Part shown: positions 15,034-37,782 of the stretch, piece by piece
Position numbering within the stretch: position 1 is the stretch's first letter
How the letters are laid out: each line of letters begins with the position of its first letter
Assembly (NCBI RefSeq): GCF_030463535.1
Contig: NC_132878.1
Span: 21,751,925 to 21,815,924 of the forward strand
DNA from: Salminus brasiliensis
Lineage: Eukaryota; Chordata; Actinopteri; Characiformes; Bryconidae
Direction of reading: 5' to 3'
Length of the DNA stretch: 64,000 bases
The notes under the pieces: model-generated
Database searches by the model: none
Told to the model about the DNA's origin: nothing
Seen by the model: the letters and a program-made list of their open reading frames with translations, nothing else
Position numbers and translations under genes: made by a program

Positions 15034-17349
15034 TCACACTTCGTCTAGAGATTTGCTCTTCTTCCTGATCTTCCCCATAATGCTCTGCAGTTGGTTCACA
15101 GTCTCAATCATATGCCGAAAACTCTCATGCACGCCTCCCATGCCTTCCTGTTTCCAGGACAAGCGCAGCTCCTCGATCCATCTCAGCACCTCGTCCAGCT
15201 GCTCCCGTGTCTGTCTCTGCTCCTCCAGTTCAGCCAGCAGCGCTTGTTTGGCGCACACTTCTGCCTGGTAAGAACGCTGCAGGTCTGTGATCGAAGCCTC
15301 CAGCTTTAAAAGCTGTTCCTTGCTCTGCGGATATTTCCTGTGGGGCTCATCTTCAGGCAGCAGGACGCTTTCAGGGACAGAGAGAACGCTGTTCACCAGC
15401 AGGGTTTCCATGCGACTGGACAGCTTCTTAAAGCGCTCCTGCAGGAACCGGAGCAGCTTCTGCGTGCATTCTCTGGTTTTAAGCTGAAGCTCCTCAGGTG
15501 GATCCTTCCCTTGGGACAGCTTCCGGACAAACACAGACTCCACGATCGCCAGCATCTCGTACATGCAGTCCTGGAAGGCGCTGTTCACCCTCATCATGCA
15601 GGTCTGCGGAGTGAAGCCAAAGAACTGTGCCTCGTACAGCTTGAGAGATTCAGAGGAAAAGGTCCCCACTGCGAAAGGAAAGGGAAATTGAAAAACACCA
15701 TCTGATGTAACAGAAATAGAGGAAGCACTTTATTGGTGCTATATACAATCATCCACAAAAGGCTTTCCACTGATGTTAGGGACACCTTCCCCAGCCAATC
15801 TATTACCACGGTTCTATATGGGAGCAGTGCCTTTATTAAAGTACCCTTGAAGAACCACTTTGTGGATTTTGAAAACTAATAATAATAAAAAAAAGGAAAG
15901 TGACAATATATAACAATAAATATATTACCTAATGATCTTTATTTTAATTGACTCACATTAGATGTGAGATCATTTCATGATGAATGGACCAAGACAAACA
16001 CTCCACAATTATTTCGATTTTTTTTTCTCAATAAGAGGAAATATTAGTTTTTGCTCTCTCCTGTAAAGATATCATCTGCCACAAAACATTCATTTCTGCA
16101 ATGTGAATATTTATATAATTGTATTTTTAATATAGTTCTTAGTTACATATCTTATAGAATAAACAGTTAATGAACAGTTTCTACCCACAGGCTGTCAGGC
16201 TTCTGAAGATCTTCTTAGATTAACCTGCCTATATAAACATTTCTACATAATTGCCTCCTGTTTATGTGGTGTATATTTTTCTGTATGGCAGTATCTTTCA
16301 GTTATTTAGCTTATGTAAATATACCCACTATTTTATTTTTACAGATTTTATTTTGTTGTTATGTTTGCACTATTTTTACTACCCATATATATTATGCTTG
16401 CCCTCTGTAGAGTGATTATCTGAGCCTCACCCCAAGACATGATGTGCAAATGATCGATAAACTTGAAACTAGAAATCCGCTCCGCCCCAGTTGGTCCACC
16501 TTTTGCTCTGTGCCCATGCATTAGAGACCAGTATGACAACCAGTGCTTTAGCCAGCACGTGGCATTGTCCCATTCTACGAACAGGGCTTTCCCAAGGAGT
16601 TTATACAAGCTGTGTGCACAACTAAACACTGTCTCAGCAATGGGTGTAGCACCTTAAACTAGCTGAATTCATCAAGCAGAAGGAGGACCTGGTTACTTTT
16701 GGACAAAGTCCCCTTGTCCATACTCTCATGAAGAAAAGAGCTGTGCTTGGCCTCGTTTAACTGGAGGACATGGGCGTGGCTCCACAGGGAGAGTGGTTTC
16801 CCAGACCCAGGTTGAGCCAGGTTAAGCCTTCTCAAAAGAAAATAATAAAGTATGCTACTGCAGGGCATACAGATTGGGTAGAAATTGGTTCTTTGCAATT
16901 CCAGGCATTAAATAACCCGGAAAAATAACAGGACTGTTTGAATAAGATGATGAACGGAACAGCTGACTAACAAAGTTACTGAAAGAAACTGCTCTGCTCT
17001 GCACGTTTGGACCCAAACTAAGTTTTAAATGCACACATTAAAATAACAGCAAATAGCATTTCTAAAGCATTCTAATTCTCACAGACGTGTTTCTTCACAC
17101 AGCAGTAATCTAGCTAGCTAAATCTTTGTGTATTTCAGTCTGTCAGAAAACCAGCTGAGAGAAGTGGTCCGGCGCCGCTGCTCTGTCAGCTCTCTGAGCA
17201 GTGAGGACCAGCAGGAAGACGCACCGCTCCTCGTATATGACTGTTATTGTCTAACACAGACACTGAACCGAGGAAAACACCAACATAACACCAACACAAA
17301 CTAGTTAGTAAAGCTCCTCACCATCGCTACTACCTCCGTTCTCCGCCAT
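15034..17349 (-). CDS. mis12: MIS12 kinetochore complex component
   Basis: Subunit of the Mis12 complex of the KMN network, which joins inner-centromere proteins to the microtubule-binding Ndc80 complex. Two coding exons: exon 1 (17322-17349) encodes MAENGGSSD and ends at a GTGAG donor; exon 2 (15034-15668) follows a TTTCGCAG acceptor. Together they give 220 codons plus stop, in frame, against 205 in human. Family marks are YEAQFFGFTPQTC near residues 21-33, LLPEDE in the middle and CAKQALLAELEEQ, followed by a long helical, probably coiled-coil C-terminal part. It lies head-to-head with derl2, with about 1 kb between the start codons. The N-terminal extension encoded by exon 1 is longer than in mammals. 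The identification is firm; transcript ends are inferred. Confidence 0.95.
15669..17321 (-). other. mis12 intron 1 with repeat fragments
   Basis: Non-coding. 15725-15875 carries a small-element-like segment with paired words such as TACCCTTGAAGAACC. 16165-16215 encodes an SFYPQAVRLLK-like peptide that resembles the C-terminal end of fish LINE reverse transcriptases, so a LINE 3' remnant is possible (weak). Confidence 0.4.
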
Positions 17350-18314: not shown

Positions 18315-19814
18315 ATGGCTTACCAGACATTCCAGCAGGAATACTTACAGATTCCCGTGGTTACGAGGACATATACGACCGCCTGTGTGCTTACCACGGC
18401 GGCGGTGGTGAGTAAAAGACCAGCCTTGGTGAAATGTCTGACATTTGGTTCCAGCGTTAGTCGACGTTTCCAGTCGCTTTAGCTGTGCTAGGTTAGCTAG
18501 CGAGGGGAGGTTAGCTCGTAGCTCAGCAGTAAGCTGAGTTAGCTGTAAGTTGCAGCAGGACGGTGTGCCGCTGGGCTGGAGAAAGCCAGCTGTGTGTCAC
18601 CTATTCAGTTAAAGCTAGGAGGGATTTGCTAAATTAGGAATAACCATTACACTGAGCTCCGCGCTGGGCTAGCCAGCTGTTGTTCCCCTTGACATTACGA
18701 TGGCAAGCGAGCAGAGCTGCCGAGTCAGTGTGTTTACTGTTTAGCTATAGCTCAGCTGCCAGACAGGCAGACAGACATACAGCAGTTTATGGATGATTCT
18801 GGACTTCATCTGGGACATCACAGCTGCTGTGAGTAATTTAGAGGTTTATTTGAATGATTTAAAGTGAAAATAACTTGGACTGGACTGTACTTAGACCTGA
18901 GATGACATTGTTTACAGGTGTTAACTATTAGTTTTGCTCAGTTACATGTGCAGGACCACAGGTTCGATGGCTTTGTACCCTTCTCAGTGTCTCTGAATGA
19001 TTCATTTGTTTGCTATTAGACCGGCCACTTCACCGTTTCTACAATCACTGTCTATTTTATCTGCTCAGCTTACCATACAGGAGCTCTGAGTAGTTCTACA
19101 ATTACAGACTGTAGTCCATCTGTTTCTCTGCTTACTTTATTAGCCTCCTTTCACCCTGTTCTTCAATGGTCAGGACCCCACAGGGCCACCACAAAGCAGG
19201 TGTTAATTCTGTGGTGGGTCATTCTCAGCACTGCACTGCACGAGTGGACTGAGAAGAGTCCACCAACCAGCGATATCCAGCCAACAGCGTCCTGTGGGCA
19301 ACGTCCCGTTATCACTGATGAAGGACTAGAGGATGACCAGCACAAACTGTGCAGCAACTTTACGTCTACCACCAGCGGATGCTCCATCAGTATCCAGGAG
19401 TACCAGCGCAGCACACACTAACACCTCACTACCACCATGTCAGCATCACTGCAGTGCTGAGAATGACCCACCACCCAAGTACTACCTGCTCTGTGGGGTC
19501 CTGACTATCAGGACAAGAACAAGGTGAAAAGAGGCTAACAAAGTATGCAGAAAAATAGATGGACCACAGACTGTAATTATAGAACTACAAAGTGGTCCAA
19601 TATGGTCAGTGGAGCTGATATAATCGACAGTGTGTATAAGCTAGGAGGTGGTTTTAATAAACTGGCTGGTCGAGTGTGTATGTGAGGAAAATAATCTACA
19701 TTATACTCAGTTACACTTTAGTCAGTAACATTTAGTTTCAGTTTCTCTCACCTCTCATATTGAAGCATCTTAGACCGAAAGGATCCAAAAGAGAAGACTG
19801 GAGCCTAATGAAGT

Positions 19815-23639: not shown

Positions 23640-24245
23640 AAGTCCCTGTCATTTATTTGAATGTGCTAAAGTGTAGCTTTGGTGCTGAGGAGATACATGC
23701 TTCTCAGCACAGTGTACATAAAAGAAGAAGCCAGATAAATACTTAAAAGCCTTGTCACATTTCTGAGATTATTCATCTCCAGTCAAAATGCTGCGTAGTC
23801 CGAGGAATGAATTAAACGGACTAGTCATCTAATTTACATTGGACTGGAAAAATCTTGACTAGGTTTTATTCCAGCTCCAACATTCCTAATGCCAAGTGTT
23901 GGCTGGAGGGGATATTCCCCCTTCCCCAGCATTGGGCTGTTTAGCAAGGGAACTGTAATCTCTGGAGTGATTGAGCTTCATCACATACCGTCAGGTTGAG
24001 CTGAAGTGGCATTTGTGCTGCAGTACTGACTTGACTAATACTTTTATGGTTGAATGCAATCAAAACCTCATGGCACCTCATGGCACCTCATGGCACCTCA
24101 TGTTCCAGTGTTCTAGTGTAAATCCCTCCTGCAAGAGTAGAGGCTGTTACGGCAGTAAAGGGAGAGAAGTGAGCTGGGAACTTTGGGGAAAACGTTGGAT
24201 GGGCAAGCGTCTTTTGGACGAGGGTTGTAGCTCTACCCAGCTGGG
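23640..24245 (+). repeat. Local duplicate, left copy (partner at 25349-25920)
   Basis: GAATGTGCTAAAGTGTAGCT, ATGCTTCTCAGCACAGTGT, GAAGAAGCCAG and CTTGTCACATTTCTGAG recur in the same order and orientation at 25349-25920. The second half includes a decayed Tc1-MITE (CCCCAGCATTGGGCTGTTTAG). The left copy lies beyond the 3' end of the scimp-like gene, the right one in its intron 4. Confidence 0.7.
24069..24106 (+). repeat. Short tandem repeat, CTCATGGCAC unit
   Basis: A 10-base unit (CTCATGGCAC) is repeated about three and a half times inside the left duplicate; the right duplicate has only CTTCACAGCA at the same place. Confidence 0.8.
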
Positions 24246-24526
24246 TTACAATCAAGACTATGTTCATTTCTGTTCTTCAAAAAGTGAGTCATTTCTCTTA
24301 CATTGCATTACATACAAGCAATGACCCTCATTTCAATCACTGTAATCTCTATCCAGTCATTTTCAGTGTATCCTTACAATCCTTACAATTACCAACCCAA
24401 TAATGCCCTATTCATTCAGTGCAACATAAGGTATATCCAGTCTGGCTACAAAAAAATGAAGTCCTGCACTGTCTTCATGTATCCTCTTCAGAAATAACAT
24501 TGTTATATAACGATTTGCTTTTCGAC

Positions 24527-24551
24527 ACCCCCCCCCCCACACACACACACA
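24527..24551. repeat. C-run plus AC microsatellite
   Basis: About eleven C followed by about eight AC units. Confidence 0.85.
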
Positions 24552-24857
24552 CTTCCCTTAACCACCTCTCAAAAATGTCCCATAGCTGAGAACCATTCCC
24601 TTCTTGATTGCGTTACCAAGGAGGCCTACGAGTGGCTTCATTACTATTTCTACCTCCCACCATGCTGCTCCTTCACTTGGTTCAGTGTATTTCATATAAA
24701 ACTGCTCTGATTTGATGCATTTCAATAAGCAACTCAGTTCAAGCATGAAAAACATCCCAAAAATAAAACTGAGTATGCTGCAGTCTCATGGAAAGTCAAA
24801 GTTCAAAGTCAAAGTTCTGTGCAGGATCTTAAAATGATCAGTTTCTAGATGTGCAGA

Positions 24858-24863
24858 TTTATT
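24858..24863 (-). terminator. Candidate polyadenylation signal of the scimp-like gene
   Basis: AATAAA on the minus strand only about 30 bases past the stop codon, implying a very short 3' UTR if used. Confidence 0.45.
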
Positions 24864-24893
24864 GTATGAAAGTGCAAAAAAAAGCTTCCTTTA

Positions 24894-27800
24894 TCATCCC
24901 ACATCATCGTAGTCCTCGCTGGCGTCTAGTTCGCCAATGTCGTCGTAGCTGGCCAGGCTTTCACGACTGCAGTTTGGAGTGTTGAGGAGTTCTGGCTGCT
25001 GCTGGAAGGCAGGTGGATCCTCATCAAGCTCCAGGTAATCGGGCAGAGACGCTACGTCCTCGTAACTCTGGGACTCTGTAAAAATGCATGAACAACAATG
25101 ACCTATTATGTCCATCAACTACATTTAGCGTGACAAGCAAAAAATCCACAGAACCTGTTCTGATGAGTCTAATCCAGTGCTGGTTCATTTATTATCAAAA
25201 TCATTGGACTCAAATTCTTATCCTGGGTCTAAACAGACTTTTTATTTTACCAGAGAACTACTTGGGTCTGTTTCCTGGACAGGTATCAAGTCTAGTCAGG
25301 AAAAGAGTTTTCCAATTTTCCTTGTCATGCAGATCTGACAAGCCCAGTCATTCATTTGAATGTGCTAAAGTGTAGCTACGGTACTGAGAAGAGACATGCT
25401 TCTCAGCACAGTGTGCATGAAAGAAGAAGCCAGAAAAATACTGCCTTGTCACATTTCTGAGGTTATGAATCCCCAGTGAAAATGCTGTGTAGCCCAGGTC
25501 ACAAAATAAATGGACTAGTCATCCAATTTTCCTAGGATTGGAAAATCTCCAGTCTAAATGCTGTGTAGTCCAGGACTAGGCTTTATTCCAGTCTGGGAAA
25601 CCAGCCGTACATCAGCCTATGATCAACAATCCCAGTGCCAGTTGTCAGCTGAAGGGGGTTTAACCCTCTCCCTTAGCGTCAGGCTGTTTAGGAACTGGAG
25701 TGATAGTGATAACAACTCCAATTCCATTCCCGTCAGGTTGAGTTGAAGTGGTATTTGTGATCCAGAACTGACTTTACTATTACTTCTATGGCTGCATGCA
25801 ATCACAACTTCACAGCAATGTTCCAACATCTAGTCTAAAACCTTCCGACAAGAGTAGAGGCTGGTAACGCAGTAAAGGGGGTAAAAACTTTGGATGGGTA
25901 AGTGTCTATGTGTGTCTATTTACTGTGCTTTGTATAGTAGCTCTATCCAACATTCAGGCCTGTGGCTGTGTCCCAACTTCGTACTACACACTAGTACTGT
26001 TAGAGACATACTGTATACTCACCTTAATAGTGAGTTAGAGGTTGAGAGGTTAGTACACCAAGTATTAACGTACCAACCCATTTTCCACTAACAGGAAGTG
26101 ATGGAGCTCTGCTAGTCCAACATATGTCACTGGAAGTTCTGCAGCTGCCGTCATTTTTTCTAACAATCGTTCCAGATGTGAGGCGCTCCTCCCTTTTAGT
26201 TTGGCATTGCATTGTGGGATAATAGTGTCCATCTTAAACACACTCATAAACTGACTGGTTCGGAGTATGTATGTTGAATATGTGAGTATACTCAACTTTG
26301 ACTCTTTTAGCTATACTATTAGCAATAGAGATTAAGATAAGATAAGATAATTCTTTATTAGTCCCACAGTGGAGAAATTCTCAGTGTCACATCAGAAAGG
26401 GATAGCAAGACACTCAGTTACAAAAACGTAGATAAATAATTTATACTATATACACAATAGAAATGAGAATTAAAAAAGCAATAACAATATTATTTACAGA
26501 TTATTGCAAATGATCTTGCACATGTGTGGGGGGGGGGTATTGCACATAGTATTTTTACATTGAGGGACCTCTGTTCCCTGAACATGTGTGTGTAGTTTAA
26601 ATTAGTTTATGCAATTGGGATACACTCTATGTTCACTAATATTTCTTTAAAAAGTGAGCAACATCACTATCACACAAATGGTAAAGCAGTGTAGTGATGG
26701 ATGGTAAAAAAAATGGTGCTTTGAATTTACATTAATTAAAGGACACTTCCACCACAGTAAGGTGAATTGGAATGAATATGTAGGAATATGTAAATACAAC
26801 CACAGTCCAGCTCATATATGTAAACTAAGGCTCCCTTTTTACGCTTTAGGGCACTAATGAGTGTGTCGGCCATTTTTCTATGAGGGTCCTATTCGTAAAG
26901 TGGAATTCGAGTAAGATTTTGAGGACACTACAATATCCCACAATGCACTAGCAATGTATAGTAAACATCGAAACTCACATCAGCTGAATGTGGGTCAAGT
27001 CTCGTGGCTAAGAAACAGACAGTGGAGTGAAATGGAGCCACTAAATTTTGGACTTTCTTGTGTAGTTCGTTGATGGGTGGCTTATGTTTCTAAGCAACAT
27101 CCAGGGCTTTAAACATGGCTCTTTACGCAAACTGTGCTGATGCATGTGGTAATGATGAGGAAGTGTCCGAATTCATTTGTGTTTCTACAGCTACGTGGTA
27201 AACGAAACAGTGCCTCCATACATAGCGCAACACTAATAAAGGGAATTCACTGTCAAAATCACTGTTCTGCCCAGCCCACTCTTAATGCAGTTTTTAGGAG
27301 TGTTTCAGTTCTGGGTGCTTTTTTTGAATGACACACAGGATAGAAAAGCCAATCAGAACAGAGGTCACTTACTCATATCTATATAAGGTCACTTTACCTT
27401 ATAACACATAACCGGTTTACCTCAAGAACAAATATATAAAAAATAATGTTGGGGCCCTTTAAGATCATACTAATAGGCCTGGATTTATGATACATGTTCC
27501 CTGAATTTTATATAATGGTTATGAATTTTGCTACTAAACAACATCCTTAAATGATGTATTTAATCAAACCTAAAAAAAGGTAACAACAGTGTGAGCACAC
27601 AGCTCTTTGTCACAGTAAACATCTACTCCCGACTGCAGAGCACAGTTTGTTTCTATTTGACTCAAATTCAGGGGTTCTCAACCAAGGGGACAAGGTGTCT
27701 TGCTGGGTTCTTTCTTTGCCAGCTAAAAAAGCATTCTGCACACACCATTGATCCTCACCGTTTTTGTTAAGCTCTTCAACGTCGTCATAGCTTTCACACA

Positions 27801-30800
27801 CACTCTTCAATTCCTCTTGCTCAGACTGGATCTCACAGTGCTGGATTAAAGGCCGTGGTGGAGCTGAACTTTGAATTTCTACTTTCATGGGTTCCACTAA
27901 TTTGTCCACCTCCTCATAACTGTTGGACACTGGAAAATCAGACAAGATAAGACAACAACAATTACAATAATAATAATTAGTAGTAGTAGTAGTGGTGTTA
28001 TTTGTATTAATAATAACAATAATAATAATAACAAAATAACTACAATAAATGTAACTGATTATACAGAACAGCATTGATAACTGGAAATGGAAATGACTTC
28101 TGCATTCAGAACACAAGTTTGCATGCAGTCTGATTTCCCAGAACAAGCTCATGTACAACTCATCCTGTCATCATGCAATGTATATAAATATATCTTTCTA
28201 GAGCAATGAGGCGCTCTGCGAGTTGCTCTGGAGCTCCAGTTCAAAACTAAAGAAGAAAACTACGGATAACTTGGTCAGTTGAGTACGTTTTAGAAATGGG
28301 AAAGCTTGTGTCAGTGTAGATTCTCCAACCTTAAGTGAACTTGCCCAGAGGGCAAGAGGTTTCAGCTTAAACCTACAAGTGAAATGCAAGGTCAATCCAG
28401 GTTTAATCGCAATAGTTGACACCACAAGATATGCGTCAGCGTGAATCCTTACTTGACTCTGTGAGGAACTGGTCTCTTGAAGGTAGCGGGGGTGGCTTCT
28501 GCTCCACATCTGCATTTTCTGGAAACAGGCTGTGACGAAAAGATATATAAGATGTTTTTCTCATCTTTTAACGGCCAAATATCTTACCTTTTATTTTCCC
28601 CCTGATATCCAGGAATGCTATTTGTGTGCTTTTCACTCATAACTTTCCATGACTGTTTTCCAATCTTTCTTATTTGAAAAGGTTACTATTATGTTATTGT
28701 GCCTTTAAAGCAACAGTATGTAACATCTGTACATTAAAAAAACACCTTCAAAAGTAACACCTTAATATTTTGACGGTGCACTGACATATTTGGTCATATG
28801 ACACTGGTCATATTTGTGTAAAGTCCGATAATATTACTTTGTCTCTCTCAGTATTTTGACTTCCAATGCTGGTTCTGTATCTCTTACTTAGCAAATGCTG
28901 AATTACACTCTCCAACCCTAAAAGATTGCACAATGCTGCTTTAAAAATGCTATATATAAATATCTCTGTTCTGATTGGCTGCCCTATATCACAGCTCATT
29001 CAAGAAGCAGTCTAAGCTGAAACCTTCTTTATAACTTGTGTGAATTTATAACACATTTTTACAAATATTTGTTGTCTTAGAGCAGTGTTGATGCTCGTAC
29101 ATCCACTCAGCTGCTTAACCCCTACATATTCAAAAGCTTCTGATCTGACTTTATTTAGAGGGATTTTAAAGCATTAACTCAGAATGGCTTTGAGTGAGAC
29201 TCAGACAGTCAGATAGTAGCATTGGGCACTTAATTGTAAATAGTTATATATAATAGCAGCATTATGGAACATTGGTAGTTCTAGCAGATTAATTCAATTA
29301 AAGCCACCATTGTTGTAACTAGGAATAGGGAGTAAAGTTAGGACTAAGAAGGGCCTATGACTGACAGGAACCCTAAAAAATGTGAGCAAGTACATTTTGG
29401 CAGAAGTGTTAGAGCTGTGGACCCCAGTGTAATATTTTTTCATGCAGCCCAAAATCCCTGACAGCGCACCCTGAGTAGGAAGGATTTTTTGGAGGAATGC
29501 CATAGGTGAACTATTTCTGTGAAAGAGATGTAGTGTATGTTTGAAGAACCTCTTAAAGGTTTGCAGAAGTCCATTAAAAAGTTCTTTTTTAATGTAAGGG
29601 TTCTTCTTACTCTCATCTCTTTTACAAAAATGGTTTTTATATTGCATTGCTCAAAGAACCCTTTGTAGCATATTTACTTTTAAGTGTGTATGGTAAATTA
29701 TCTGTTAACAGAAGTATCTACAGACAGAACATCTCCAACCTGTGGTGTTAAGCATCGATATATGCTATGTAGTGGATCTACACAGATAAGCACAACTGTA
29801 AAAGGTTTTACATGGTTTTTTTTTTTCTTTGTTATAATGCTGTTTACCTTACATGCATTATACATTCCTGGCTCGAGTGTTGCACAAGTGTACATAGCAA
29901 ACAATAAAATAACTCACCTTAAATACCTTATCTTTACCCTGATAAAGTGATTTATGCCAATGTTTCTTAACCCTGGTCCTGGAGGCACCCTGCCCTGCAC
30001 ATATCAGCCGACTCCCTTCTTTAACACACTCCCTGGAAGTCTGAAAGGGCTTGTTAATGAGCAGATTAGTTGAATAAGGTGAGTTGGGAGTAGGGAAAGC
30101 ACTAAAATGTACAGGGCAGGGTGCCTCCAGGACCATGGTTGAGAAACACTGATTTAGGCTATCCACACATATTGCCTATACTTCCTACTTTTAGCAATTC
30201 CAATATCCTACCTACAGCTACCTACAGTAGCTACAGCAGTTGTCTCTATAAATACACACTATGGTAGCACGCTTTGACAACTCAACAGAACGCTGGAAAC
30301 CACAGTTGAAGAAAATGTTACATTAGTATGAGGGCACAGAGCTTTAACCAACTTACTTTTCATGACTTAAATTAGTTTGATTTGGTTTTGATCTTCGAGC
30401 ACGTTGTCTAGCAACTGAAAGGGGAAGAAAAAGAAAGACAAAATTGAGTCCAGCTTCTGATACATCATGCAGTCTTGAATATAAATACACATCACAAGAC
30501 CCACAAGTTCCCCTAAAATGCTTACTGCCCAAGAAGGAATTAGCGTTTATTAAATAAGTCTGTGGGTTGACATGTGGGTTGTTTTAAACAGGGCCGTTTG
30601 TTTCCAATAATAAGCACTCATCATCTACTATATCAGAAACGCCTACTTTGTACTTACACTCACTGACCTATTACAGATCCACTATTGTTGGTATACAATT
30701 ACAGACTGTAGTCCTTCACAATCTGTTGTCCTTCACGGTTTGTCAGTCACCCTCTAGATTAACTTATAATTGGTCAGTTTTTGCTACAGGACCACCCGTT

Positions 30801-33192
30801 GACCAGATGTTAACACTGACCATTCTCAGCAGGCAGTGGTTGTGGTTGGTGCTGATGCAAATGACACAGCACTGTCTAGCACACATCAGTGTCACTGCTC
30901 ATCTTGGTTAACTACCCAAAAATATCCATACCAAAACTCTGGGGGGCTCTGTGGTAAAACATTAACCATTGACAGGGCTGAGAATCACTGACACAAATTG
31001 TTAGATGAGCTGCAGGCTCATTGGTATGCAAAACACCATAAATGCCTACTTAGTACAGGCCATAATTAAGCGTGTGACCAATTGTGTGTTTTAATGAATC
31101 TGTTTTAGTTGTATTTAGTTGTATTCAGACACTTGCTGACTGAACAGTTCAAATTAAGCCAGTCTGCATCGCTTTTTACATGCATGCTTAACCTGTAAAC
31201 TTTGCATATATAAATAAAAAAAAAATATATATATATACATCTGTGTGACTTCACATGTTTCAAATATACTATATAAATAGTCGTAAAAAAGTAAGAATCA
31301 GAAAAAAGGTCAGAAATACTGAAAAGCTGTAGACTGCAGAGTAAGAAAGCTGTGGAACAACAAGAATGCTGCTATAATAAACTGCAAAAGACTGACTTTG
31401 CCGTTTTAGCAATTTCCTTGTGGATGCTGTATTATCCCAGGTGGCTGCTAGGGTGTTGCCAGGGTGATTGGTTGACTGTTTCTTAACTAGTTGCTGCATT
31501 GTTGCTATGCAAGGGGCTTACAATGTGGTTGCTATGCTATCCCAATTGCTTGCTGTAACATCACACATGTTTGCAACCATGTCTTAAGAAAACTTGACTA
31601 ATTCATATCCAGGCTGCCTAAGGTTTTTAAAGTGGTGATTAATCTTGAGACAGTAAATGTGAATGGCAATGATTTTAAACAAATGATTGCAATAAACAGT
31701 TTATCATTTTGCTGTTACTGACATTTAAACATGCTCTCTGTACGTTGACTACGTTGAAACCTTTTAACAGTGGTGTGCAAATCAGAATTATGAGAGGCAT
31801 ATTGTACCAGCCATGATTGATAAAAAGCCTACTGTCGAATTTAATTCCATTCAACTGTTTTTGTAATAGATTTTCTAACAAAGCAAAATGCTTTTTTCCA
31901 AATGCGTGTTTCTTTATGCTTTCATGTGGTAATCTATTGTATTTCCTGTTTCTCTTTTTAAAATACATGTCTATAATGCAACAGATAAAGGTGGAATACA
32001 TGTAAAGTAAAGGTGCACGTATTTGTCACTGTACAGCGAAATGTGTAAATTTAACCCACCTGGTAGTGAACACACACTCACACACACACACGTGTTAGGG
32101 GCAGTGAGTACAGACACACACCCAGAGCGGTGGGCAGCCAACTCCAGCACCCGGGGAGCAGAGAGAGTAAAGGGCCTTGCTCAAGGGCCCAACAGTGGCA
32201 TCTTGCCGAGCCCGGGAATTGAACCCACAACCCTGTTATTGACAGCCCGGCGCTCTAACCGCTGAGCCACCACTGCCCATGGGTAGGATTCATGCTTCAA
32301 CAAGGCTGCTATTAGTGTTTTAAACTATGTTATGTCCATTTATTTAGATGACAGTGTTGGTTACAGTGTCAGAAACAATAAATCTATATGATGATTTAAT
32401 CTTACAGCTTACACAGTTTGTGGCAAGTGTGTGCTGATTCAGGTATGAGCAGGTGGTCATGTTTATTACTGGTTAACTACATTAGCTACTAACAGGCATA
32501 TTGCTTGAAAGTCTTACATTACTTGATGGCCAAATCTGAGGATGTCATGTCTTGTTTACTGGATGTATGCAAATATTAATATATTTAACAGCTGTGTGTG
32601 TAAATATTGCAAACCTGAATATGAGCAGTAAAAGCACCCCACTTATGTCTCAGACTTTTAATATAAGACATTTCATATCAAGATCAAATGCATTAAAATG
32701 TGTAGCTTATAGAATTTGTACATATTGTGTATTACTGTGCTATTTTATGTTTTTTTGTGCATAATATTAAGTTAAATATTACAATCAACAAACTAAAATA
32801 TATATTTAAGATGTTTCCAAGCTATTATTCAATAGTTTATGAATTCTGTGTTAGTATTAACTGTGAATGATATACTGTAATTTACTATTACCTCATGATT
32901 TTTTATTTTAAAAAAAATTCTGGATACTAAAATTATTATATTTCATTCTTGATGTTCTACAACTTTTGTCATTCATTTTACATGATTCATTATCCTCTGC
33001 AGCTCTGTTCATTATTATAAATGCATTCTCAATATTTTTACACACAGGACTTATACTGAACATACCGAATAAACACCACTTACCTTGCTTACTAATACAC
33101 ACGTTGATTATGATGAATAGGAGGACTATTGTCAAGGTTGACACAAGTACCCCCACTATTACTAGCCAGAGGAAATTTGGTGCGTGTGCCAT
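24894..33192 (-). CDS. scimp: SCIMP-like transmembrane adaptor with six tyrosine motifs
   Basis: Probable adaptor in immune-cell membranes that is phosphorylated on tyrosine and recruits SH2/SH3 proteins. Coding exons: 33084-33192, 30357-30414, 28453-28529, 27759-27929, 24894-25075. They sum to 198 codons plus stop, in frame throughout. The start ATG follows a T-rich acceptor. Residues about 7-31 form one hydrophobic membrane span with little ahead of it; Cys32 next to it could be palmitoylated; a basic stretch RQRARRSK (39-46) follows. PPPLPSR at 68-74 is an SH3-type ligand like the one in human SCIMP. Tyrosine motifs are Y86 (EEV), Y129 (DDV), Y143 (EDV), Y152 (LEL), Y182 (DDI) and Y194 (DDV, almost the last residues). 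Human SCIMP has the same plan and a DYDDVE near its end. The call rests on architecture and position beside rabep1; whole-length similarity is low. The exon 3 acceptor at 28529 was chosen because it keeps frame. Confidence 0.75.
25349..25920 (+). repeat. Local duplicate, right copy (partner at 23640-24245)
   Basis: Same order and orientation as the left copy, with substitutions and small gaps. It lies in intron 4 of the scimp-like gene, so the two copies bracket its last exon. Confidence 0.7.
25960..27758. other. Rest of scimp-like intron 4: repeat remnants
   Basis: 25967-26300 resembles small fish elements with GTCCCAACTTCGTACTA and a CATTGTGGGATA word. 26334-26530 starts with GATAAGATAAGATAATTC and TTTATTAGTCCCACAGTGG, which resembles a LINE 3' tail. 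A run of eight or more G lies near 26529. No exon was found. Confidence 0.4.
27930..28452. other. scimp-like intron 3
   Basis: Simple ATT/AGT-rich stretch at about 27960-28040, otherwise nothing. The minus open frame at 27610-28158 is exon 4 plus read-through. Confidence 0.5.
28530..30356. other. scimp-like intron 2
   Basis: Holds a hAT-type MITE (29958-30151) and a GGTTCTT-rich small repeat (about 29530-29685, GAAGAACCTCTTAAAGG and AAAGAACCCTTTG). A possible exon at 28594-28650 was considered and rejected. Confidence 0.45.
29958..30151. mobile_element. hAT-type MITE with target-site duplication
   Basis: The left terminus CAATGTTTCTTAACCCTGGT is matched by the inverted right terminus CAGTGTTTCTCAACCATGGT, extending to about 40 bases with CCTGGAGGCACCCTGCCCTG in both arms. 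Flanking 8-base copies ATTTATGC (29950-29957) and ATTTAGGC (30152-30159) differ at one base, as expected for hAT transposition. Confidence 0.8.
30650..30905. repeat. Decayed relative of the palindromic element at 19056-19625
   Basis: Shares ACAATTACAGACTGTAGTCC and, more loosely, the ACCATTCTCAGCA / CAGTGTCACTGC region with the derl2-intron element. Lies in scimp-like intron 1. Confidence 0.45.
32006..32280 (-). mobile_element. tRNA-derived SINE, minus strand, well preserved
   Basis: On the minus strand it starts GGGCAGTGGTGGCTCAGCGG. An A box TGGCTCAGCGG (32259-32269) and a B box GGTTCAATTCC (32215-32225) are spaced as in a tRNA gene, giving an internal Pol III promoter. The body has a CA-rich stretch and ends near GTGACAAATACGTGCACC. 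Lies in scimp-like intron 1, antisense-free with respect to that gene (same strand). Confidence 0.85.
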
Positions 33193-35190: not shown

Positions 35191-36074
35191 ATGTAAGCAC
35201 TATGTAAGCATAGTGGCGACACAGTGAAGACACAACTTTAGTGATTCAGCGCTTTTCATGTACTTAAATTCTACAAATGCTGATTTGGAAAAAGGAAAAT
35301 TGAGCTTCTTCTTTCTGGACTAGCATTACAGACACATGGAGCATTTCATTGTACAGTAAAATAATAAAATAATAAAAATGCAGACACTGTCTCATTAAAT
35401 ACATCGGCTTGAAATATCAGACAAATCTAAACATTTGTGTAATGCGGATAGTTAAATAGGTATATATGCACTAATATATCCCTGCACTAAAATATTATAA
35501 AACCAATATTTTGTAAGTGCATATATCTGTCAGCAAATATTTCCTTCATAAATATAACTCATTAAAGTGAGAAATGTGTTTTTACTAAAATGCTAACATA
35601 CAGTTAAATAACTGATTTCACATCAGTGTTTGCTTCTAGACTTTATTCATTTATTTTTTTTATACTAGCATGAATATTTACAAAATTGTTCTGTTAAAGG
35701 TTGTAAAAGTGAAACAATTTATTTGCCTTTTTAATTTCTGTTACTTGTAAGACGCTAATGAGTTTAAATAAAAGAAGATCACCTTGTCATGTACGCTATT
35801 AAGGTTACTTCTCACTCTTGATAAATTAGTAAATGTTTATGTATACATGTTCTTTAACATAGCTGCATGGTTTTCAAGGTATTTAACTTCCTCCCACCAT
35901 CACACAAACACACATTGCCATAGTCCTAAAACTTTGGCCTACTTAAAGGCCATTGGCCATAACATCCTAATCACTGTAGATGCCCATGTCTGCTCAGTGT
36001 CCTCTTTTTAAAAACCACAGTATAGCCACTCTTGATGTTGTATTGTATTGTTGTACTGTGTGGTAATATATATA

Positions 36075-37782
<1,708 letters not shown>

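Follow-up and report, generated by a model that had tools for sequence, protein, structure and literature searches.

In a window of 64,000 nucleotides from Salminus brasiliensis (contig NC_132878.1, positions 21,751,925 to 21,815,924, the whole stretch analysed here), a scimp-like gene, which lies between derl2 and rabep1 on the minus strand, was modelled from the DNA sequence alone. The coding model comprises five exons encoding 198 residues, is open throughout, and has exon start phases of 0, 1, 2, 1 and 1, with all four introns being of the GT-AG type. The last two coding exons, covering 24894–27929 from the stop end of exon 5 through the first base of exon 4, carry paired tyrosine motifs, and their origin by tandem duplication, as put forward in the original prediction, was found to be plausible, if unproven.

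Gene model and tyrosine motifs

Coding exon 1 (33084–33192) was found to provide the start codon, a short outer end, a hydrophobic stretch recognised by eye as a single membrane-spanning helix and the juxtamembrane Cys32, a putative palmitoylation site, and it is open up to its donor GTAAGTGG. The basic juxtamembrane stretch is encoded by exon 2 (30357–30414), which is bounded by the acceptor CCCTTTCAG and the donor GTAAGTTG with the frame kept. Exon 3 (28453–28529) adds KPPPLPSR, of which the proline-rich PPPLPSR is a likely SH3 site, Lyn being the SH3 partner of this stretch in SCIMP. Two acceptors were tried for this exon, of which the frame picks TTCGTCACAG; the nearer CAG at 28519–28521 was ruled out, as it breaks the frame. 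The tyrosine-bearing tail, presumably disordered, is made up of exon 4 (27759–27929, 171 nucleotides), with acceptor ...TTTTCCAG and donor GTGAGGAT, and exon 5 including the stop (24894–25075, 182 nucleotides), with acceptor ...TTTTACAG. Approximately 30 bases past the stop lies an AATAAA (24858–24863, minus strand) as a possible poly(A) signal, this being the sole AATAAA or ATTAAA on the minus strand within 24001–24893.

The prediction that the two tail exons carry paired SY motifs at the same splice phase and at the same distance from the exon start was borne out by the model. Both exons begin in phase 1 with SxSYE[ED]V, the first tyrosine being the fourth full codon in each, and both contain a second SYDD[VI]xEL motif at a gap from the first SY motif of 43 residues in exon 4 and 39 residues in exon 5. 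Past the junction codon, exon 4 reads SNSYEEVDKL...CESYDDVEELNKN, with ESYDDVEEL as its second motif, and exon 5 reads SQSYEDVASL...LASYDDIGELDASEDYDDVG, also written SQSYEDVASL...ASYDDIGELDASEDYDDVG. Exon 4 carries SYEEV and SYDDV, and exon 5 carries SYEDV, DYLEL, SYDDI and DYDDV.

As also foreseen, six tyrosines lie in motif context (positions 86, 129, 143, 152, 182 and 194 of 198); they are the only tyrosines of the whole model and give, in order, YEEV, YDDV, YEDV, YLEL, YDDI and YDDV, that is, five Y[DE][DE][VI] sites plus YLEL. The C-terminal end, EDYDDVG, is by sequence an SLP-type YDDV site, and at none of the six tyrosines is the Y followed by the xN of a Grb2-type YxN site. Scanning all six frames of the window for xY[DE][DE][VI] revealed seven occurrences, where 20 base shuffles gave a mean of 3.0 and a maximum of 6; five are within exons 4 and 5, and the other two, at 18359 and 46193, are on the plus strand. 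With regard to a strict immunoreceptor tyrosine-based activation motif, inspection by eye showed YDDI-x8-YDDV as the sole near approach, with V where L or I is expected. As a separate observation, the last two motifs of exon 5 (24897–24953) resemble a small internal repeat, GCCAGC followed by TACGAYGAY, with 16 of 21 bases alike once a 6-base gap is omitted, a figure given without a chance comparison.

Identity of the gene

The naming of the gene as scimp-like in the original prediction is supported by its position. The gene order in the window is mis12–derl2–scimp-like gene–rabep1, and the human order is SCIMP–RABEP1...DERL2–MIS12. The neighbouring exons were identified with Pfam, giving 160.9 bits for Mis12 (one open stretch of 231 codons, 15034–15729, minus strand), 83.2 bits for DER1, and 155.2 and 102.1 bits for Rabaptin.

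For the whole 198-residue protein, the best Pfam family was SCIMP (PF15050; residues 6–85) with 18.7 bits. Upon providing exons 1–3 together with a single tail exon, the score rose to 23.0 bits with exon 4, the match then extending as far as position 99 of the 132 in the profile, and to 21.5 bits with exon 5, where it extends to position 90; the tail past the first tyrosine motif was not matched by the SCIMP profile. Against a provisional human SCIMP sequence, the first 81 residues were alike, with 0 of 3000 shuffles reaching the score. The tail of this human sequence fits exon 5 more closely than exon 4 (75 versus 589 of 3000 shuffles reaching the score with default gaps, 4 versus 1340 with softer gaps); its TYSLVNKV aligns with the SYEEVDKL that exon 4 encodes, and its MYEN stands, when aligned globally, opposite the fish FPEN, there being no tyrosine at that fish position. 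We regard this tail comparison as a lead, not a test.

Several observations weigh against the assignment. The 18.7 bits of the whole protein are below the cut-off of 27; the baculovirus 11 kDa family scored 17.5 on the whole protein and exceeded SCIMP on exons 1–3 alone (19.7 versus 19.3), which indicates that the SCIMP match is partly due to membrane-helix composition; the peptides of exon 4 and exon 5 by themselves matched no Pfam family; and the part from the membrane helix to the proline stretch did not show significant likeness to the provisional human SCIMP sequence (253 of 3000 shuffles). A whole-genome search with the SCIMP profile gave no match anywhere and missed the scimp-like gene itself, making it uninformative, and a search of solved-structure sequences, run up to E 10, gave 17 hits, the best at 0.16, with nothing meaningful among them. 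Because Pfam support stays low, orthology to SCIMP rests mainly on position and make-up, and on this basis we regard it as probable that this fish gene is orthologous to SCIMP.

It is improbable, in our estimate, that the gene is another transmembrane adaptor at the same place, for instance one resembling RHEX (PF15763). RHEX is a small transmembrane adaptor, and its profile matched the fish protein weakly over residues 8–154 (14.7 bits), with SCIMP itself being under the cut-off; yet SCIMP scores higher and gains when one tail exon is shown, the neighbours fit SCIMP, and PPPLPSR follows the membrane helix. The genomic neighbourhood of RHEX is presumably unlike that of the scimp-like gene.

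Relationship of exons 4 and 5

Exons 4 and 5 are adjacent and of equal splice phase, as expected of tandemly duplicated exons, and exon 4 has phase 1 at both ends, in agreement with the prediction. Their local alignment score of 48 was reached by 5 of 5000 whole-exon shuffles and the global score by none of 5000. The peptide-guided alignment gave 15 identical residues out of 52 and 71 identical bases out of 156 (45.5%), motif columns included in both the identity and the codon shuffles, 0 of 5000 of which reached that base identity. In a test anchored on both motifs with a free gap between them, the non-motif similarity of the two exons was reached by 93 of 5000 shuffles with BLOSUM scores and by 200 of 5000 at the nucleotide level, the latter value replacing a previous nucleotide figure outside the motifs (49 of 5000), for which the peptide aligner had set the gap.

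Features flanking the motifs point in the same direction. Leu is present at Y+6 in all four SY motifs, and at least one invariant column among seven flank columns was obtained in 101 of 20,000 motif-kept shuffles; the shared position of the first tyrosine together with the similar spacing of the second was met in 1.3% of random placements. A weak match of 58 columns (67%, E 0.019) spans both splice acceptors and the beginnings of the two exons. Codons are alike for 8 of the 15 identical residues, and the three aligned serine pairs all use the same codon, counts that stand without a chance comparison. In a control with unrelated protein, 4 of 323 overlapping windows from three protein pieces of the region scored as high, and for the rabep1 linker, this was 0 of 108. 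Taken as signals beyond the motifs, these are weak.

The case for copying is weakened by what happens when the motifs are controlled for. Shuffles in which each xYxxx block was kept in place reached the score of the exon pair in 832 of 5000 cases locally and 376 of 5000 globally, and upon masking the motif blocks no local similarity was left (4749 of 5000 shuffles reaching the score). Furthermore, the p values of the anchored test and of those on the motif flanks and tyrosine placement are weak, and several statistics were tried on one pair of short exons. Of the predicted tandem duplication, the motif pair and the phase symmetry hold, and the copying itself stays unsecured, given that similarity outside the five-residue tyrosine blocks is marginal (93 and 200 of 5000) or absent; in the proposed alignment, the peptide scores surpass full shuffles and do not surpass motif-kept ones.

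A rival reading is that no exon duplication occurred: two unrelated tail exons would have gained acidic SYxxV motifs that are alike because docking of the same SH2 domains was selected in both, with the phase match being coincidental. This explanation is a serious contender, which we place somewhat short of an even chance. Selection for SH2 docking can produce short acidic SY motifs more than once, the similarity of the exons lies mostly within the motif blocks, their nucleotide identity is only 45.5% even with motifs included, and across the genome neither exon was matched to its neighbour or to a third copy. A genome-wide translated search with the joined tail matched only exons 4 and 5, each solely at its own locus (E up to 10, all four candidates scored), revealing no third or decayed copy, and a DNA search with exon 5 plus its edge matched only itself. 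Against separate origins speak the Leu that all four motifs share at Y+6, the equal position of the first tyrosine, the similar spacing and the marginal residual similarity, as well as the match across both acceptors and exon starts.

A different origin of the pair was suggested by a non-coding direct repeat, termed R, of approximately 0.55 kb, which lies in the same orientation on both sides of exon 5, with one copy downstream of the exon (23644–24212, plus strand) and the other in intron 4 (25343–25907, plus strand). Alignment of 23644–24162 with 25343–25879 revealed 68% identity across 575 columns, gaps included, and a further 28 bases extend the match at 24185–24212. Among the 40 scored of 407 candidate genome matches, the outer parts of R occur at these two places only, and the inner 200 bases match a dispersed repeat family. 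The two best short matches beyond R (24–28 bases at 24212 and 32 bases at 24258) keep their order on the exon 4 side, as a larger duplication predicts; yet for the 731 bases that separate exon 5 from R, the best matches on the exon 4 side are pieces of 24–32 bases (E 0.009 at best), and the exons have diverged much further than R. The idea that a recent segmental duplication gave rise to the exon pair, with R as its trace, was rejected, R including neither exon 4 nor exon 5, and we consider it very improbable. Since a unit copied together with R should align throughout at 68%, and the exons do so only at 45.5%, we read R as an event separate from the exon pair, and younger.

We favour, at odds rated only slightly above even because several looks were taken at one pair of short exons, the interpretation that exons 4 and 5 go back to a single ancient exon duplication and have since eroded heavily, selection having kept only the motifs. 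The gene is real-looking and the motifs are real, and it is probable that they form an enlarged tail in a probable SCIMP orthologue.

Two further features of the window were noted by eye. Between the scimp-like gene and rabep1, the stretch 36070–37680 is transposon-like: its inverted ends are similar, and it contains a long open frame that looks like a Tc1/mariner transposase. An open frame at 779–1060 on the minus strand looks like part of a beta/gamma-crystallin.

Proposed function and comparison with known adaptors

Starting from the observed gene model, motifs, phases and neighbours, we infer that the protein would act as a single-pass transmembrane adaptor, putatively palmitoylated, in which a Src-family kinase held at PPPLPSR would phosphorylate the tail. 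The five pY[DE][DE][VI] sites would then bind the SH2 domains of SLP-65/SLP-76, and a single adaptor could bring several SLP complexes together, in the manner of ADAP in T cells. Since exon 4 has a length divisible by three and phase 1 at either end, its skipping would be frame-neutral and would drop two of the five sites. The presence of five Y[DE][DE][VI] sites and the absence of YxN suggest a multivalent SLP-65/SLP-76 dock without the direct, Grb2-type site of mammalian SCIMP. The combination of SCIMP orthology, ancient duplication and multivalent SLP dock appears to us to be evenly balanced between right and wrong. A bolder extension, in which SCIMP of this fish lineage is a multivalent SLP-65/76 clustering platform that has gone from one to five SLP-type sites by exon duplication and has lost the Grb2 arm, with optional use of the symmetric exon 4 setting the valence, is unlikely as it stands. 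If true, an immune adaptor would have altered its signalling output by copying one docking motif via exon duplication; if the motifs arose separately, they would exemplify the repeated gain of one short motif.

In African weakly electric fish, scimp is listed as a transcript in which one site, S87P, is variable (PMC7591079), which means that scimp is already on record in another fish; SCIMP is also listed in a table of Toll-like receptor adaptors (PMC11524855) and named in the introduction of PMC9880191. Our literature search, mostly at listing level, met no account of fish SCIMP tail exons.

With mammalian SCIMP, the fish protein shares the short outer end, the one predicted membrane helix, the Cys at the inner face, the proline-rich stretch and the tail with tyrosine motifs, as well as a YDDV near the end and the adjacent rabep1. 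Human SCIMP presumably has four tyrosines in its tail. The fish gene differs in having two motif-bearing tail exons with six tail tyrosines, compared with three that are conserved from mouse to human (PMC5253658), and in being without YxN, whereas mouse Y58 was read with a Grb2 SH2 probe, alongside Y96 with CSK and Y120 with SLP (PMC9544816). If our interpretation is true, a mixed Grb2/Csk/SLP tail in mammals versus an SLP-dominated tail in a fish is predicted.

ADAP (FYB) is not known as a transmembrane protein; it differs further in its folded hSH3 domains, and no homology to the fish gene is claimed. Its YDDV tyrosines bind the SLP-76 SH2 domain, and pull-downs with YDDV peptides additionally recover Nck, PLC-gamma, PIK3R1, CRK, Gads and RasGAP, meaning that the specificity of YDDV for SLP is not exclusive, which tempers the proposed dock (PMC2908683). 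Three ADAP tyrosines oligomerise SLP-76 (PMC6669380). The likeness to the fish protein, whose sites are known by sequence, lies in the multiple YDDV-type sites within one adaptor, which in ADAP are bound by the SLP-76 SH2 domain and cluster SLP-76 (PMC2908683, PMC6669380).

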